From Patescibacteria group bacterium (GTDB taxonomy: Bacteria; Patescibacteriota; Minisyncoccia; UBA9983), in contig JAHJXC010000076.1 in assembly GCA_018827845.1 (NCBI GenBank), positions 1-14,711 of the forward strand: a stretch of DNA of 14,711 bases, in the 5' to 3' direction. The notes beneath the pieces were generated by a model, which did not search any database, was not told where the DNA came from, and saw nothing but the letters and a program-made list of their open reading frames with translations. Positions 3,444 through 14,711 of the stretch are shown here, piece by piece; within the stretch, counting starts at the first letter, position 1; each line of letters starts with the position of its first letter. The translations under genes and the position numbers were made by a program.

Positions 3444-3514
3444 TGGACTCGAGGAGAATCGAACTCCTATCTGCGCAATGCGAATGCGCTGTTTTGCCAC
3501 TAAACTACGAGCCC
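3444..3514 (-). tRNA. tRNA-Ala, anticodon CGC
   Basis: Cloverleaf on the minus strand, 71 nt. The acceptor stem GGGCTCG/CGAGTCC includes the G3:U70 wobble pair that identifies alanine tRNAs. The D stem is GTTT/AAAC, the anticodon stem GCGCA/TGCGC with loop TTCGCAT (anticodon CGC, 3480-3482), and the T stem AGGAG/CTCCT with a TTCGATT loop. The discriminator is A and no CCA is encoded. Its first 10 nt (3505-3514) are also the last 10 nt of the efp coding sequence, including the TAG stop. It probably shares the efp transcript. Confidence 0.93.
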
Positions 3515-4162: not shown

Positions 4163-4735
4163 ATGGAAAAAGATATGAAAAGTTTAAGAGACGAAGAAGT
4201 TTTGGCTATGTCTGTGAAAAAGCCGTCATTTTTTGAATTATTAGTTGACAGACACCAGGACGCCTTTTTAAGGGCAGCTTTTAAGATTATTAATCACAAA
4301 GAAGAATCGCAGGACATTGTTCAGGAGGCATTTACTAAGATTTATTTGAATGCCGACAAGTTCAAAGAGCAGGCGGGCGGCAGTTTTAAAAGCTGGGCCT
4401 ATAAAATTGTCATTAATACGTCGCTGACGCATTACAGAAAAGTAAAATTAATCCAGAAAACTGTTGAATATTATGATTCTAATTTATATAATGCGGCAGA
4501 AAATAACGATATGGAGTTAAATACTGACATGAAGATTCTTGTATCTAAGACTTTATGTGGCATGCCGCAGCATCTGCAGAGCATTTTGAGAAAATATTAT
4601 TTGGAAGACAAATCTCAAAAAGATATTGCGCTTGAAGAAAACATTTCTGTCACTGCCGTGAAGATGAGACTTTTTAGAGCCAAAAAAATTTTTAAAAAAA
4701 TTATTGAAGAAGATAAAAAATTATGCATCACGTAA
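4163..4735 (+). CDS. RNA polymerase sigma factor, ECF-like (sigma-70 family)
   Basis: A 190-aa two-domain sigma factor. Sigma region 2 covers about residues 24-92 and includes FKIINHKEESQDIVQEAFTKIY, with the DxxQE core-polymerase-binding motif at 51-55, and FKSWAYKIVINTSLTHYRK for -10 recognition. Region 4 covers about 128-178, with LRKYYLEDKSQKDIALEENISVTAVKMRLFRAKK as its helix-turn-helix. There is no region 1.1 or 3, which fits the ECF group. The start is ATG 4163, just downstream of a -10-like box. The next gene overlaps its 3' end by 13 bp in another frame, so the pair is translationally coupled and the partner may control the sigma factor's activity. Confidence 0.92.
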   Translation: MEKDMKSLRDEEVLAMSVKKPSFFELLVDRHQDAFLRAAFKIINHKEESQDIVQEAFTKIYLNADKFKEQAGGSFKSWAYKIVINTSLTHYRKVKLIQKTVEYYDSNLYNAAENNDMELNTDMKILVSKTLCGMPQHLQSILRKYYLEDKSQKDIALEENISVTAVKMRLFRAKKIFKKIIEEDKKLCIT

Positions 4736-5064
4736 ATCTAAAGAAAAAAATAATGAGGAGAGTTTATGCTATCTGGTTTTTCAAAAAAATAACCAGCCCT
4801 TTTGCATTAGAGCTGATTTCTTTTGCGGCCTTGTTGCTTTGGATGACTGTTTATGTTTCTTTGTCCAATGTTTTAAACAATGTGCCTTCGATTTCTTCCC
4901 CGTTTCCTGCTGCCAATTTCTTTATTTCTGCTTTTTACGAAACAGAGATGATCGTCAAGATTATTCTTATCGGCATGCTTGCTTTATTAGTATTTTTAAT
5001 GAAAGATTTAAGAATAACAATATTGCGTTTGCTGTTCAGGAAAAAAGAAACACTTTTTGCATAA
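4723..5064 (+). CDS. Two-helix membrane protein coupled to the sigma factor
   Basis: A 113-aa protein of no recognised family. It has a basic N-terminus (LKKKIMRRV), a hydrophobic helix at about residues 26-48, a 25-residue Ser/Pro-containing loop and a second helix at about 75-94, then a strongly basic tail (LRLLFRKKE). Both ends are predicted cytoplasmic. It starts at ATG 4723, 13 bp inside the sigma gene; a second in-frame ATG at 4753 would avoid the overlap. Overlap with an ECF sigma gene is the usual place for a membrane anti-sigma factor, but no ZAS or other known anti-sigma domain is seen. That role is inference from position only. A terminator follows directly. Confidence 0.8.
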   Translation: MHHVNLKKKIMRRVYAIWFFKKITSPFALELISFAALLLWMTVYVSLSNVLNNVPSISSPFPAANFFISAFYETEMIVKIILIGMLALLVFLMKDLRITILRLLFRKKETLFA

Positions 5065-5067
5065 GAG

Positions 5068-5108
5068 ATGGCGGGGTATAAAAATCACTCCCGCCATTTT
5101 TTATTTTA
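5068..5108 (+). terminator. Rho-independent terminator of the sigma/membrane-protein operon
   Basis: An 8-bp stem ATGGCGGG (5068-5075) pairs with CCCGCCAT (5090-5097) across a 14-nt loop, followed by TTTTTTATTTT. It begins 4 nt after the stop of the membrane-protein gene. Confidence 0.85.
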
Positions 5109-5134
5109 ATTGTTTTTCGACATTGCAAACGACC

Positions 5135-5155
5135 AAACGACATCGTAAGTCGTTT
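5135..5155 (+). repeat. RAYT-associated palindromic repeat, copy 1
   Basis: A 21-bp unit with arms AAACGAC and GTCGTTT around the loop ATCGTAA. With one more base each side the stem is 8 bp (5134-5156). It is preceded by a tandem half-arm AAACGAC (5127-5133) and a possibly degraded further copy (5117-5133). Confidence 0.85.
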
Positions 5156-5159
5156 GCCC

Positions 5160-5188
5160 TTGAAACGACATCGTAAGTCGTTTATAAT
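5160..5188 (+). promoter_or_regulatory. Sigma-70 promoter of the RAYT gene
   Basis: TTGAAA (5160-5165), an exact 17-bp spacer and a perfect TATAAT (5183-5188), 8 nt before ATG 5197. The spacer is repeat copy 2, so anything that binds the repeat would block RNA polymerase. No Shine-Dalgarno; leaderless or nearly so. Confidence 0.75.
5163..5183 (+). repeat. RAYT-associated palindromic repeat, copy 2
   Basis: Identical to copy 1 over 21 bp and in the same orientation, 28 bp downstream of it. It spans the end of the -35, the whole spacer and the first base of the -10 of the transposase promoter. Confidence 0.88.
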
Positions 5189-5196
5189 TAAACTTG

Positions 5197-5904
5197 ATGA
5201 GAAAAACACCTTTTGTTTCGGGTGAATATTATCACATTTACAGCCGAACAATATTAAACGTGCCCGAATTTCGAGATAATAGAAACGCCGAACGGCTTGC
5301 GCAATCTTTTTTAATAGCTAATTCAACAGAGTCAACTCGAGCCTTTCAATTTTTAAGAAATCATGAAGATGCTACGATTGAAGACGCTGTAGAAATTGCA
5401 AAAACAGGAGAAAAACTCGTGGATGTTTTATGTTATTGCATAATGCCGGATCATTATCATCTTCTGATAAAAGAATTAAAAGACAATAATATCTCAAATT
5501 TTATGCGTAAGTGCAACATTTCTATTTCAAAATATGTGAACATCAAAAATGACAGGCGCGGAACTCTTTTTGAAAGCCGTTTTAATTCCAAACATATTGA
5601 TACAAATGAATATTTGCTTCACCTTTCTCTTTATATTCATCTTAATCCCCTTGATTTTATTAGTGGAAGGGAATGGAGAGAAAATAAACTTAAAGATTGG
5701 CCTAGCGCAAAGAAAAAACTTTTTGATTACCCATGGTCAAGTTTGAAATCTTATATAAATGAAAATGATAATTATAAAGATTCAATTATATCTGGCACAG
5801 AAATAATCAAGGATCAATTTAAAGACGTTAAGGAGTATGAATTGTTTCTTCAAGAATGGTCCGAAGATGCATTAAACTCAATAAAAGATCTAGTTTTTGA
5901 ATAA
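5197..5904 (+). CDS. REP-associated tyrosine transposase (RAYT, Y1_Tnp/IS200-like)
   Basis: Single-stranded-DNA transposase-like protein of the HUH Y1 family, 235 aa. It begins RKTPFVSGEYYHIYSR, the typical RAYT N-terminus, carries the metal-binding HUH motif in MPDHYHLLI (His86 and His88) and the helix YIHLNP containing the probable nucleophile Tyr146, and ends in PWSSLKSY, also typical. A TTG at 5194 would add one residue; ATG 5197 is preferred. RAYTs act on REP palindromes rather than on their own ends, and here three copies of a 21-bp palindrome flank the gene. The stop codon overlaps copy 3. All recognised motifs are intact. Length is somewhat above minimal RAYTs because of an insertion at about residues 42-72. 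Confidence 0.9.
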   Translation: MRKTPFVSGEYYHIYSRTILNVPEFRDNRNAERLAQSFLIANSTESTRAFQFLRNHEDATIEDAVEIAKTGEKLVDVLCYCIMPDHYHLLIKELKDNNISNFMRKCNISISKYVNIKNDRRGTLFESRFNSKHIDTNEYLLHLSLYIHLNPLDFISGREWRENKLKDWPSAKKKLFDYPWSSLKSYINENDNYKDSIISGTEIIKDQFKDVKEYELFLQEWSEDALNSIKDLVFE

Positions 5905-5923
5905 ACGAAATCGTAAGTCGTTT
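5903..5923 (+). repeat. RAYT-associated palindromic repeat, copy 3
   Basis: Same 21-bp unit and orientation as copies 1 and 2, with one change (the left arm is AAACGAA, disturbing the pair next to the loop). It overlaps the TAA stop of the transposase (5902-5904) and lies 5 bp from the recA stop on the other strand. Confidence 0.85.
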
Positions 5924-5928
5924 GGGTA

Positions 5929-6930
5929 TTATTTTATCGTTTCTTTGATTTTTTTGACGATTTCCTGGGTGATTTCGAGGTTGTCTTTGAGGAATTGGCG
6001 GGCGTTGTCATAACCTCGGCCAAGACTTGTTTTGTCATAACTATAAGAGGCGCCCGATTTTTTGATAATACTGTATTTTTCCGCCATATTCAAAATATCG
6101 CCTTCATAAGAAATTCCTTCGTTATACAAAATATCAAACTCAGCTGTTCTAAAAGGAGCAGCCACTTTGTTTTTAACAACTTTTGCTTTTACGCGGTTGC
6201 CGATGGTTTCCTCGCCTTTTTTAATCTGAGCAGCCCGACGGACATCAATGCGCACTGATGAGAAAAATTTCAGGGCCTTGCCTCCGGGAGTCGTTTCCGG
6301 ATTACCGAACATTATGCCGATCCGCATCCTTATTTGGTTAATGAAAATGACCACTGTTTTTGACCTTGCAGTCATGGCTGTGAGTTTGCGGAGAGCTTTT
6401 GACATTAATCTTGCTTGCAGGCCTATTTGCTGGGATGACATATCTCCTTCAATTTCTGCCTGCGGAGTGAGAGCGGCAACAGAATCAATAACTACAACAT
6501 CAATCCCTCCGGAGCGCACCAAACTCTCAACTATTTCCAGGGCTTGTTCTCCGGTATCTGGCTGGGAAATCAAAAGATCTTGTATTTTTACACCTAATTT
6601 TTTCGCATATTCAGGATCAAGGGCATGTTCAGCATCAACAAAAGCACAAACCCCGCCCTTTTTTTGCGCCTGAGCAGCGATACTTAAAGCCAGAGTTGTT
6701 TTGCCAGAACCTTCAGGCCCGAATATTTCTATAGTTCTTCCGCGGGGAACGCCTCCAACTCCCAGAGCCAGATCCAAACTTAATGAGCCGGTGGGAATAG
6801 TATCAACATCAACTCGTCTTGCATCGCCGAGCTTCATTATTGCTCCTTCGCCGAATTTTGCCTGGATTTCATGAATGGCATTTTCAATACCAGCATTTTT
6901 TTCTTTTGGTTCTTTTTGTTGTTTTGCCAT
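5929..6930 (-). CDS. recA: RecA recombinase
   Basis: ATP-dependent strand-exchange protein for homologous recombination and repair. The 333-aa product has the N-terminal helix ([21 protein letters not shown]), Walker [10 protein letters not shown] (71-79), the [10 protein letters not shown] segment with the catalytic Glu, Walker [11 protein letters not shown], loop L1 and loop L2 with [16 protein letters not shown]. The C-terminal domain is short and ends in a basic KKIKETIK, without the acidic tail of E. coli RecA that tempers activity. The ATG lies 7 bp after the stop of the upstream membrane/Ig protein gene, so the two are probably cotranscribed. Convergent with the RAYT gene, with a palindromic repeat between the two stops. 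Confidence 0.98.
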
Positions 6931-11024: not shown

Positions 11025-11264
11025 TTATCCACATCTTAATTTTGCACTTTATGCTAAAGGATTTATAATTATTAGTACGTAAGAATTGTAAAATTAACAG
11101 TTTATCAATTCTTTTATTGGTTAATAATTTGTATAGAATTTGGTTGAGTCGAGCCATGTTATCTATGCAAGTAAGTAAAATAATTTTGTATGTGTTTTTA
11201 TTGAATCCCATTTTAGCGGAGGAGATAAGGCGCAATAAAATTATTTAACAAAAGTTAAAATTAT
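11025..11264 (+). promoter_or_regulatory. Rest of the surface-layer gene leader
   Basis: An AT-rich leader of 240 bp. It holds a perfect 8-bp inverted repeat AAGAATTG/CAATTCTT (11081-11088, 11106-11113), a possible 30-aa ORF, and a hairpin TTTAAC-AAAA-GTTAAA (11244-11259) just before ATG 11265. A strong SD-like GGAGGAG (11218-11224) is about 40 nt from the ATG, too far for normal use. No SD lies at the usual distance. Confidence 0.4.
11156..11248 (+). CDS. Possible 30-aa hydrophobic leader peptide
   Basis: A 31-codon ORF ending TAA 16 bp before the surface-layer ATG. Its product has a hydrophobic middle (KIILYVFLLNPILA) followed by EEIRRNKII. It would be translated from the long leader and could couple or regulate translation of the large gene. 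There is no SD in front and no family is recognised, so it may be chance. Confidence 0.25.
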   Translation: MLSMQVSKIILYVFLLNPILAEEIRRNKII

Positions 11265-14200
11265 ATGAGTAAAAATTTTATTAGAAAAACTAAAGTCGGA
11301 AAAATAACTTCTGCTTTTGTAGGAATTACAACAGCTGTCTGGCTTTCAGGCGCGGCGGCAATTATGCCTATCGCAGCTCAAGCTGACACTATGTCAGATC
11401 TTCAAGCGCAGATTTCAGCATTGCTTGCGCAGATTACTACATTGCAATCGCAACTTTCTGCATTGCAAGGCGGTACTGGAACAGCTTGCGGTTACACATT
11501 TGGTGTTGACCTAAAACAAGGAAGCACAGGAGCAGATGCTAAGAATCTTCAGACAGTTCTTAACTCTGACGCAGCCACGCAAGTTGCCGCGAGCGGAGTT
11601 GGCTCATCTGGAAATGAAACAACATACTTCGGTCCTTTGACCAAAGCGGCTGTTGTTAAATTTCAGGACAAATACGCTTCTGAAGTTTTGACGCCAATCG
11701 GCCTTACAGCAGGAACAGGTTATGTTGGTTCAATGACGCGAGCAAAATTAAACGCTCTGTTTGGAACTTGCGTAACACCACCACCACCAGGAGAAACACC
11801 ACCTCCTTCAGTTGGCACAGGAATTTCAGTTTCTTCAGCAATTCAGCCAGCAGCATCAATCGCTCCTAATAGTGCTGCAAGATTGCCTTTTACTAAGGTA
11901 ACCCTTACAGCCGGAACTGATGGAGATGTTGTTGTTAATGGAATTCAAGTTGAAAGAACAGGTCTTGCTGTTGATGCAAACTTTGCCGGTATCGTTCTTT
12001 TGGATGAAGACGGATTACAGCTTGGCATTGCTAAGACATTGAATTCTCTCCATCAAGCAACAATTGGCGAAGCTTTCACTGTTAAAGCAGGACAATCAAG
12101 AACAATGACCATTGCCGGCAACATGGCATCTTCTAACACCGCAAGAGCAGGACAAATCGCTTTTATTTCAGTAACCGGACTTAGCACTTCAGCAACAGTA
12201 ACAGGAACTCTGCCAATTACTGGAGCTGGTCATGTCATTAATGCAACTCTTACAATTGGAACAGCCACACCTTCAAGAGGACCACTTGACCCGAATGCTA
12301 CTATAAGCAAAGAAATTGGAACAACTGGCTATACATTTTCTTCTGTTAAGGTTACAGCAGGTTCAACCGAGAAAGTAATAATGAATTCAATTAGGTGGAA
12401 TCAGTCAGGTTCAGCAGGATCTTCAGACCTTGCTAATGTCAAGGTATACGTTGACGGCACTGCATACGATACCACGATTTCTTCAGATGGTAAGTACTAC
12501 ACCGCAAGTTTTGGCAGTGGAATTGTGATTGACAAGGGCCTTTCAAAAGAGGTCTCAATCAAGGCTGACATCATAAGTGGTACAACAAGAAATATTGCCT
12601 TTGATCTCTACAAAAACACAGACCTTAATGTAACAGGAGAAACATACGGATATGGAATCACTCCTGCTTCAACAGGAACAGGTTTTGCGGCAACTACACC
12701 TTGGTACGATGCTTCTGTGGTAACAATTTCAGCTGGTACTGTTAGCTCGATTTCTCAATCAAACACAGTTCCCGCTCAAAACATTGCTGTTTTAGCGGCA
12801 AATCAGCCATTGGGAGGATTTGAGGTTAAAATAAGAGGTGAAGCCATTACGGTTCAACAAATGATTTTCAATATTCAGGCAACTGGAGATGAAGCAGAAA
12901 ATATCACAAGCATTCGCTTGGTAGATCAAAACGGTTCAGTAGTTGCTGGTCCAGTGGATGGAGCAAGCACAGCTACCGACTCCGCATACGGCACAGTCAC
13001 ATTTACTGACGCTGTAACATTCCCAATTGGAGACACCATACTTAAATTGCAAGGCCAGCTTGGCTCAACATTTGTAGCAAATGACACAGTTCAAGCTTCC
13101 ACAACGCCTTCAACACAATGGACAACAGTAACAGGAGTGAGTACAGGAGACACTGTATCTCTTGCATCATTCTCTTCAGCTGTTCAGAGTAACTTGATGA
13201 CAGTTAAGGCCGGTGCGATGGCAATGAATGTTTCATCACAGCCTACAGCGCGAAATGTTATTGCTGGCGCAAAAGGATTTGAGTTTGCTCGATATATTCT
13301 TGACGCAAGCCAGTCAGGTGAGGATGTTAGGTTATCAAACTTCAAAGCGCTTCTTGCTTTGACAACAGTTACGGCCTCACAGCTTTCAAACTGTAATCTG
13401 TATGATGGTACAACTAATGTTACAGATGGAACAAATGTAACATTAGCAGCAGGAGACAATACATTCACATTCAATGGTGGAGGACTTACAGTGCCTAAGG
13501 GTACACAAAAGTCTATATCAATGAAGTGTGATCTTTCTGCTGGCGCAACATCAGGCACAGTTAAATGGGGGTTGACTGATAACTCATCAACTTACACATC
13601 TGCAACCAGTGTTGGTTCAGGCCAGACAGTGGTAGAAACTATGACCGCTGCGGCTGGTCAAACAATGACAGCAGCTACAAGCGGTTCATATACAGTCACA
13701 GAAGATTCGGCGCTTCTTTATAGCGTAGCTCAGGCCGGGACAACTGGAGTAACGCTTGCTAGAATACGGTTTACAGCGGGCGCTACAGAAGCTGTGGACT
13801 TGAAACAAATTGCTCTTCAATTGGGCAATACTGCTTCAAACTCACCAGCTGATCTTGTTGGAGAGAGAGTAACATTATTGAATGGTACTACTCTTGCTCA
13901 GATAGGTACCGCGCAATTCGGTGGCGCTAACCCTGACAATGCTACATCTACAATACTAACTCCAGCACCACGCATTGCTGCGGGTGAATCAGTAGTGATT
14001 ATAATTAAGGGTGATTTGTCAGCTCAAAATGTAAATGAAGGTACACCAGGCGCATTCTTAGCTATTACCTATGATGGTGATAACAATGGAATCAATGGTA
14101 ACTACGCAACAGGAGTTGATTCACAGGTATCAATCAGTGGGGGAACAGCTTCGGATATTACTACGAATGGTCTAAGAATCTTCAGGACCGTTCCTATGTT

Positions 14201-14711
14201 TGCTGTAACAAGCACAGGAGGCACACTGGCTCCAGGAGCTGATTTGTACAAATTCACAGTAACAAATGGGAATAACAGAGATGTTGTATTGCAGAAGTTT
14301 AGTTTCTCTGTTGCTACAACTGGCGGAGCTGTGACTGGATTCACGCTTTATGGTGATGGCGTTACAGCTAATGGATCTGTCGTAGAAGCTCCATTGGGAG
14401 TATTGGAAGTTGCAATTGATGCCACATCACAGGCTAAAATTGTTCCAGCAAATAGCTCAAAGACATATGTTTTGAAAGCATCAGCAGTTGTAGATACTGC
14501 AGCAGTCGCTGAAACAATCAACATTGCTCTTCTGGCTGATACATCATATCCTGCAATTGCGGATTTGATGGGTACAGTAACATCGGTTGAAGCTGGTTCG
14601 GGTAACACAGATAATATTATCTGGTCACCGTTCTCAACAACAACTCCTGTTGCTACATCAGCTACAGAAAGTAACCTTGACTGGACAAACGGTTATGGTT
14701 TGCCTGGCTTC
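11265..14711 (+). CDS. Large surface-layer-like protein with peptidoglycan-binding domain (3' end outside window)
   Basis: An open frame of 1149 codons with no stop to the window edge. Residues 1-40 form a signal peptide (basic MSKNFIRKTKVGK, a hydrophobic core, and AQA before Asp41 as probable cleavage site). Residues 41-69 are a short coiled coil (LQAQISALLAQITTLQSQLSAL). Residues 76-168 match a PG_binding_1 domain (LKQGSTGADAKNLQTVLN, YFGPLTKAAVVKFQ, VGSMTRAKLNALFG), flanked by Cys75 and Cys169. A Pro-rich linker (171-181) follows. The rest is Thr/Ser/Ala/Gly-rich beta modules with recurring starts such as VTLTAG (212), VTAGSTEKV (363), FTAGATEAV (836) and FTVTNGNNRDVVL (997). Only two more Cys occur (710, 755). 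The codon usage and base composition differ from neighbouring genes (many GCA/ACA, less AT-rich), as expected for high expression. Probably the cell-coat protein. Confidence 0.88.
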   Translation, partial: MSKNFIRKTKVGKITSAFVGITTAVWLSGAAAIMPIAAQADTMSDLQAQISALLAQITTLQSQLSALQGGTGTACGYTFGVDLKQGSTGADAKNLQTVLNSDAATQVAASGVGSSGNETTYFGPLTKAAVVKFQDKYASEVLTPIGLTAGTGYVGSMTRAKLNALFGTCVTPPPPGETPPPSVGTGISVSSAIQPAASIAPNSAARLPFTKVTLTAGTDGDVVVNGIQVERTGLAVDANFAGIVLLDEDGLQLGIAKTLNSLHQATIGEAFTVKAGQSRTMTIAGNMASSNTARAGQIAFISVTGLSTSATVTGTLPITGAGHVINATLTIGTATPSRGPLDPNATISKEIGTTGYTFSSVKVTAGSTEKVIMNSIRWNQSGSAGSSDLANVKVYVDGTAYDTTISSDGKYYTASFGSGIVIDKGLSKEVSIKADIISGTTRNIAFDLYKNTDLNVTGETYGYGITPASTGTGFAATTPWYDASVVTISAGTVSSISQSNTVPAQNIAVLAANQPLGGFEVKIRGEAITVQQMIFNIQATGDEAENITSIRLVDQNGSVVAGPVDGASTATDSAYGTVTFTDAVTFPIGDTILKLQGQLGSTFVANDTVQASTTPSTQWTTVTGVSTGDTVSLASFSSAVQSNLMTVKAGAMAMNVSSQPTARNVIAGAKGFEFARYILDASQSGEDVRLSNFKALLALTTVTASQLSNCNLYDGTTNVTDGTNVTLAAGDNTFTFNGGGLTVPKGTQKSISMKCDLSAGATSGTVKWGLTDNSSTYTSATSVGSGQTVVETMTAAAGQTMTAATSGSYTVTEDSALLYSVAQAGTTGVTLARIRFTAGATEAVDLKQIALQLGNTASNSPADLVGERVTLLNGTTLAQIGTAQFGGANPDNATSTILTPAPRIAAGESVVIIIKGDLSAQNVNEGTPGAFLAITYDGDNNGINGNYATGVDSQVSISGGTASDITTNGLRIFRTVPMFAVTSTGGTLAPGADLYKFTVTNGNNRDVVLQKFSFSVATTGGAVTGFTLYGDGVTANGSVVEAPLGVLEVAIDATSQAKIVPANSSKTYVLKASAVVDTAAVAETINIALLADTSYPAIADLMGTVTSVEAGSGNTDNIIWSPFSTTTPVATSATESNLDWTNGYGLPGF

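Follow-up and report, generated by a model that had tools for sequence, protein, structure and literature searches.

A RAYT-like transposase gene in a Patescibacteria genome with a promoter that overlaps its own palindromic repeat

A Y1 HUH transposase gene of a Patescibacteria group bacterium is preceded by a promoter-like site whose spacer is filled by a copy of the palindrome that flanks the gene, and this layout is recurrent in the RAYT-like genes of CPR genomes. We consider the fusion of promoter and repeat, taken alone, to be very probably correct. The fuller statement, in which a REP/RAYT-like unit carries its promoter on its own repeat and is in addition subject to negative autoregulation, is offered tentatively, as its probability comes close to an even chance but stays short of it. 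The window, meaning the whole stretch of DNA analysed here, is the 14,711-nt contig JAHJXC010000076.1 of assembly GCA_018827845.1.

The transposase gene and its promoter repeat

The palindrome of the window is 21 bp long (AAACGAC-ATCGTAA-GTCGTTT) and is present in three copies around the transposase gene, all on the forward strand and in a single shared orientation. Copy 1 (5135..5155), whose arms reach 8 bp when positions 5134 and 5156 are counted, is preceded by a lone left arm AAACGAC at 5127..5133. Copy 2 occupies 5163..5183 and copy 3 lies at 5903..5923, sharing two bases with the TAA stop codon (5902-5904). The preliminary description, made from the letters and their open reading frames, had reported three such copies and the placement of the third on the stop codon; both observations stand, with the detail that copies 1 and 2 are exact and copy 3 has one mismatch. 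A shuffled control gave 0 matches in 200 shuffles. Folded as DNA, the hairpins of copies 1, 2 and 3 reach -7.2 kcal/mol (5132-5158, z -4.78), -5.6 kcal/mol (5160-5188, z -3.00) and -3.6 kcal/mol (5900-5926, z -2.71), respectively.

Copy 2 lies in the 17-bp spacer between a -35 box TTGAAA (5160..5165) and a -10 box TATAAT (5183..5188), both on the forward strand and both identified by consensus match. As the earlier description had proposed, the copy extends over both boxes, sharing 3 bases with the first and 1 base with the second. The site matches the consensus at 11/12 positions and is the best of the 9 promoter-like sites found in 4700-6300, a number which is itself little informative (shuffles have a mean of 5.2 and an sd of 1.7). 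The -10 box and the ATG at 5197 are only 8 bases apart, which would leave the transcript with little or no leader.

The gene itself (5197..5904, forward strand), called intact before, is an uninterrupted open reading frame of 235 codons from this ATG; the list of open reading frames placed the start one codon earlier, at the TTG at 5194. The protein matches Pfam Y1_Tnp (7.7e-08) and scores 52.1 bits (E 6.4e-14) against the NCBIfam equivalog NF047646 for REP-transposases, below its cut-off of 80. Residues H86 and H88 (codons 5452-5454 and 5458-5460) and Y146 (5632-5634) are invariant across 20 aligned sequences, and from the Y-x3-N-P pattern we take Y146 to be the catalytic residue. A phmmer search of the protein against PDB sequences returned no match up to E 1, and its relatives were found by fold comparison. 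The predicted structure has a pLDDT of 90.7. Its best match in the PDB, ahead of the IS transposases, is 4er8 (E 3e-6, 11% identity, query TM 0.48, target TM 0.66), a structure of TnpAREP in complex with a REP hairpin.

The tag GTAG is absent beside all three copies, which are preceded by GACC, CTTG and GAAT and followed by GCCC, ATAA and GGGT. The RAYT label given to the gene in the preliminary description is therefore retained only in part: the TnpAREP fold and the HUH motif support it, whereas the score below the NF047646 cut-off (52.1 vs 80) and the missing GTAG speak against it. The gene is RAYT-like and does not belong to a classical GTAG REPtron. The REPtrons of E. coli (group 2) and Stenotrophomonas (group 3) resemble the window in having a Y1 HUH gene between palindromes and dispersed copies which are often paired; they differ in that the window repeats are without the GTAG tag. 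In the E. coli MG1655 REPtron, moreover, the REP is placed further upstream of a leader with AAGGAG (by eye), whereas the window promoter overlaps the repeat. In the S. maltophilia system, binding is reported to tolerate changes in GTAG to a large extent (PMC8266576). RAYT-like genes between long terminal inverted repeats are described as TIRYTs and TIRtrons (PMC3733652), and the window shares with these a RAYT-like gene without GTAG repeats. Their long terminal inverted repeats are not seen here, where three palindromes of 21 bp stand in one orientation. The IS200/IS605 elements have the HUH Y1 fold in common with the window protein, and their palindromic ends are in direct orientation, a further likeness. 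The window protein is, however, longer (235 aa), and its best fold match is TnpAREP and not the IS transposases.

Elsewhere in the window, a tRNA gene is located at 3444-3514 on the reverse strand, and an Rfam scan of the window detected this one tRNA and nothing else. An open frame of 1151 codons (11259-14711, forward strand) continues past the end of the window; judged by eye, it has an exported-protein-like start and looks like a large surface protein.

Dispersed copies and history of the unit

The genome of the window (558,660 bases, 94.86% complete) contains 8 matches to Y1_Tnp, 7 of which exceed the family cut-off. Both flanks are available for 7 of its Y1_Tnp genes, and in 6 of them the upstream palindrome matches the 3' flank, while that of the seventh (C14) is degenerate by eye. 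The genome-wide search for the repeat which had been proposed along with the first description located the window palindrome at other sites, as four inverted pairs and one single copy, plus variants with two mismatches. The repeat is thus not restricted to the transposase locus, and its dispersed copies are mostly inverted pairs, that is, REPIN-like. One of the four pairs, at G000:C6:32-77 (L016), was set aside as a probable assembly artefact, since it lies at the end of a contig and its flanks are perfect inverted copies of each other. Inspection by eye of the printed contexts, with no formal count, revealed no TATAAT abutting the dispersed copies.

One palindrome pair is located in frame inside gatB of the window genome (L013:1301-1346, G000:C54). 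When the gatB site was compared in eight genomes, a palindrome pair was found at the same position and in frame in 4/8, namely the window genome (G000) and G001, G008 and G005 (loci L199, L200 and L201). A different in-frame insert is present at this site in G003, G006 and G007 (L204, L202 and L205), and a short segment in G004. In G000, G001 and G008 the pair includes a unit identical in sequence to a palindrome that borders a RAYT-like gene elsewhere in that genome. In G005, where the gatB pair is also present, a search for Y1_Tnp genes at E 1e-4 gave none. The insert of G003, G006 and G007 has, by eye, long inverted arms and a common central peptide like LRTGIAGNSTGT; the palindrome script, with loops up to 9, listed no palindrome in it. 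Palindromes in frame inside genes are described for the Rickettsia palindromic elements (PMC3733652), which the gatB pair resembles in this respect. In the window genome, unlike that case, the repeat also flanks a transposase gene.

Further copies of this palindrome or of related ones were also seen inside other open reading frames (L014:4837-4857, L021:5282-5326, L018:1030-1050, L014:939-1055 and L022:109-717). Two of the hosts are GAPDH and valyl-tRNA synthetase; others look by eye like a hydroxyacid dehydrogenase and low-complexity proteins. The genome G001, of about 0.5 Mb, has 14 Y1_Tnp matches, several of them with differing palindromes. Two RAYT-like genes, L025 and L046 (G007), lie between inverted repeats of the type GGGGTCAGGTACCTTT or GGTGTCAGGAACCTTT, which is like the published TIRtron layout.

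For the comparison of the insertion site, the convergent neighbour recA (5929..6930, reverse strand) served as the reference point. The upstream neighbour is an open reading frame of 113 aa (4723..5064, forward strand). These two neighbours are adjacent without a transposase in G008 and G006. In the sister species G001 a transposase is present at the same recA site, and seven other genomes of the family have another neighbour there. From this distribution, the unit was either gained in this genus or lost in others. The window gene and its G001 ortholog share 73.4% protein identity, with a dN of 0.164 and a dS of 0.999 (near saturation), and the transposase unit, judged from this sequence comparison, is kept under purifying selection. 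The promoter palindrome of the G001 ortholog has C-G at one arm pair where the window has A-T, and the same C-G pair is found in the downstream copies of G001 and in the outer arms of its gatB pair. By eye, the G001 promoter retains the 17-bp spacing (TTGCAC-17-TATTAT), while the script chose TTTGCA at a spacing of 18.

Recurrence of the layout in CPR genomes

A RAYT-like gene passes the rule applied here if a palindrome whose arms make 7 or more pairs, one mismatch being allowed, extends over 8 bp or more of the spacer in the best -35/-10 match, or over 4 or more bases of the -35 box. The part concerning the -35 box entered the rule only once the results of the spacer rule on set 1 were in view. 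Set 1 comprises the RAYT-like genes of those genomes of the class that have such genes (23/37), the window gene being among the final 67. It started from 77 listed matches, of which 76 were taken; the omitted one (G013:C1:1-201) is a below-cut-off fragment at a contig end, and one weaker match was added. Of the resulting 77, 8 dropped out: 4 lacked a start or a stop, 3 did not prove RAYT-like and 1 lay at a contig end. Two further genes, whose starts were less than 90 nt from an end, were also removed (n=67). For seven genes the start was placed manually, guided by the protein motif.

Set 2 was formed from the best 80 of 502 confirmed stretches of a separate scan of named genomes. The titles of these 80 name CPR/Patescibacteria groups in 70 cases, a bacterium or uncultured bacterium in 7, and Nanoarchaeota, Omnitrophota and Spirochaetia in one case each. 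Twelve were dropped for a missing open reading frame, start or flank and 3 as duplicates of set 1 (n=65). Set 2 is not fully independent of set 1, because an alignment of set 1 members was used to collect it and the two have some genomes in common. Mechanically defined open reading frames of at least 120 codons from the same loci served as controls (n=103 for set 1 and n=131 for set 2).

The rule was passed by 47/67 genes of set 1 and 37/65 of set 2 (drawn from the best 80 of 502), as compared to 16/103 and 9/131 of the respective controls (Fisher 5e-13 and 3e-14) and 62/2640 shuffled upstream regions. Under the spacer-only rule, 36/67 and 26/65 RAYT-like genes passed against 9/103 and 6/131 controls, and an earlier spacer-only control of 108 genes had 7 with overlap. 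The preliminary description had called for a comparison with the promoters of related RAYT genes. In the pooled sets, with the window gene included, 84/132 of these promoters overlap their own repeat by the full rule and 62/132 by the stricter spacer-only rule, so that the connection between promoter and repeat is not peculiar to the window. The other 48/132 fail the rule. The true ortholog (L067) is scored as a miss because its promoter arms count 6 bp. In set 2, L138 and L150 have a palindrome directly upstream of a TTGACA box, outside the spacer.

When only genes having both a palindrome and a -10 box are considered, the rule is passed by 47/48 and 37/43 RAYT-like genes and by 16/23 and 9/17 controls (p 0.001 and 0.015). 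With one gene taken per cluster, 51/91 pass at 60% identity, 30/44 at 50% and 10/11 at 40%. Within set 2, again from the best 80 of 502, loci named Microgenomates pass in 4/10 cases and the remainder in 33/54, L138 being counted in neither, and in the window genome 5/7 testable genes pass. Among non-CPR genes, a small sample made up of the E. coli gene and eight genes from plasmid records, 0/9 passed; for it, 12/33 plasmid-record matches were fetched and 8 scored, the starts of L176 and L178 being the match starts. The contrast between RAYT-like genes and controls is a favoured one, because the RAYT starts were chosen with the protein motif and the control starts mechanically. The shuffles and the matched-copy control, in which -10-like hexamers are counted at upstream and downstream copies (see below), are free of this bias in the choice of starts.

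A promoter palindrome is usually a copy of the one behind its own gene. The 17-base core of the promoter palindrome was found at an identity of at least 85% in the own 3' flank of 73/83 genes and in the flanks of other loci in 9/1661 comparisons; this test covered the genes passing the rule (84, minus one with too short a flank). A stricter test of the whole palindrome at 80% identity gave 42/69 upstream/downstream matches in set 1. Alignments show several loci in which the -35 box is formed by the palindrome arm.

Autoregulation and its alternatives

In the explanation that we favour, the locus is a REP/RAYT-like unit: a Y1 HUH transposase gene, present at one site in two species, sits between copies of its own palindrome, and paired REPIN-like copies are scattered in the genome. 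One copy makes up the spacer between the -35 and -10 boxes as well as an edge of each box, right before a probably leaderless start. The protein may recognise this palindrome and, when placed on the promoter copy, would lower transcription. As the protein would recognise the promoter copy, expression and substrate recognition would be tied to one sequence. The most plausible state for recognition would be a hairpin exposed as a single strand or extruded, for which replication, transcription or extrusion may provide the opportunity; a duplex-binding mode would be a further route, although we know of no such mode. TnpAREP is described as recognising the folded single-stranded REP in a strand-specific manner and not the inverse strand (PMC8266576). 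For the shut-off of its own promoter that the preliminary description proposed, repression at a duplex operator is therefore an extra assumption.

An analogous arrangement is described for IS2, a member of the IS3 family, which has a weak promoter just inside its left end and, just upstream of it, a repressor-binding sequence, where an element protein is reported to bind (PMC3299598). If autoregulated, the window unit would resemble IS2 in that a promoter and a site for the element's own protein lie next to each other at the element end. A promoter that overlaps or adjoins an element repeat is found in the window by consensus match and recurs in relatives. Protein binding was measured in IS2, whereas the window promoter is known from its consensus match. 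The IS2 enzyme is also of a different kind and acts on double-stranded ends.

The same layout could have arisen by compaction without regulation, in which case the palindromes would be the ends of a minimal element hugging its gene and the overlap with the promoter would be a by-product. In such a compact element the -10 box would fall between the element end and the ATG because the gene is leaderless. We regard this as quite possible although, as a complete account, we lean slightly against it; autoregulation and mere compaction, set directly against each other, appear about equally probable. Consistent with compaction, the downstream copies hug the stop codon as well (69/73 cores begin at -26 to +17 and 16/73 span the stop), and -10 boxes at -16 to -10 are common also in controls (42/103 and 44/131, as compared to 45/67 and 42/65 in RAYT-like genes). 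The coupling of palindrome and -10 box beyond their shared proximity to the start codon is weak (Spearman rho 0.19, p 0.078), for which reason we rejected it as proof of regulation; since the palindrome end tracks the -10 box only weakly, compaction could yield the layout by itself. However, a -10-like hexamer (at least 5/6) adjoins the 3' edge of 33/89 upstream copies and only 10/89 downstream copies (52/89 and 30/89 at a threshold of at least 4/6), and the palindrome abuts the -10 box in 41/91 cases against a permuted mean of 32.7 (p 0.01). These differences, together with the palindrome arms that serve as -35 boxes, are less expected if the copies are merely element ends.

It is improbable that the spacer acts as a switch independent of the protein, extruding as a cruciform under negative supercoiling and lowering promoter activity without the transposase. 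The hairpin energy of copy 2 in the window (-5.6 kcal/mol, z -3.00) and the stronger one at L085 (-12.8 kcal/mol) agree with such a switch, but arms of 7 bp with a loop of 7 bases are short for cruciform extrusion, and the match between the promoter palindrome and the downstream copy would be left unexplained. That the upstream palindromes are ordinary hairpins of the preceding gene, such as terminators, or chance occurrences is highly improbable and was already disfavoured: upstream palindromes do occur in 27/103 and 20/131 controls, but they are carried by 56/67 and 48/65 RAYT-like genes, and the promoter palindromes match the 3' flank of their own gene. In the window, moreover, the preceding gene is followed at about 5069-5104 by a GC-rich hairpin of its own, which ends in a run of T as judged by eye (absent from the output of the scan, whose loop limit was 8).

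The fusion of promoter and repeat bears on a question raised in a survey of 2013, which gave it as unknown whether REPs drive the expression of RAYTs, counted the varied layouts known at the time and the failure of REPtrons to spread by themselves against such a role, and stated that REPs as promoters had not been examined (PMC3733652). In the open-access literature searched, partly in excerpt, we found no report of a RAYT promoter overlapping its own repeat, and the word "promoter" does not occur in PMC6006769, PMC8266576 or PMC3116915. Among the CPR loci, one and the same promoter position is filled by differing palindromes, which amounts to many natural replicates and makes self-regulation of REP/RAYT units directly testable. 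The fusion also suggests a reason why enzyme and repeat remain matched. It is possible, though rather doubtful as a generalisation, that across CPR the REP palindrome acts as operator and promoter for the RAYT-like gene to which it belongs, locking the enzyme and its repeat family together. If so, each change in the repeat would alter substrate choice and expression at once, and several separate self-limiting REP/RAYT pairs could coexist in one half-megabase genome.
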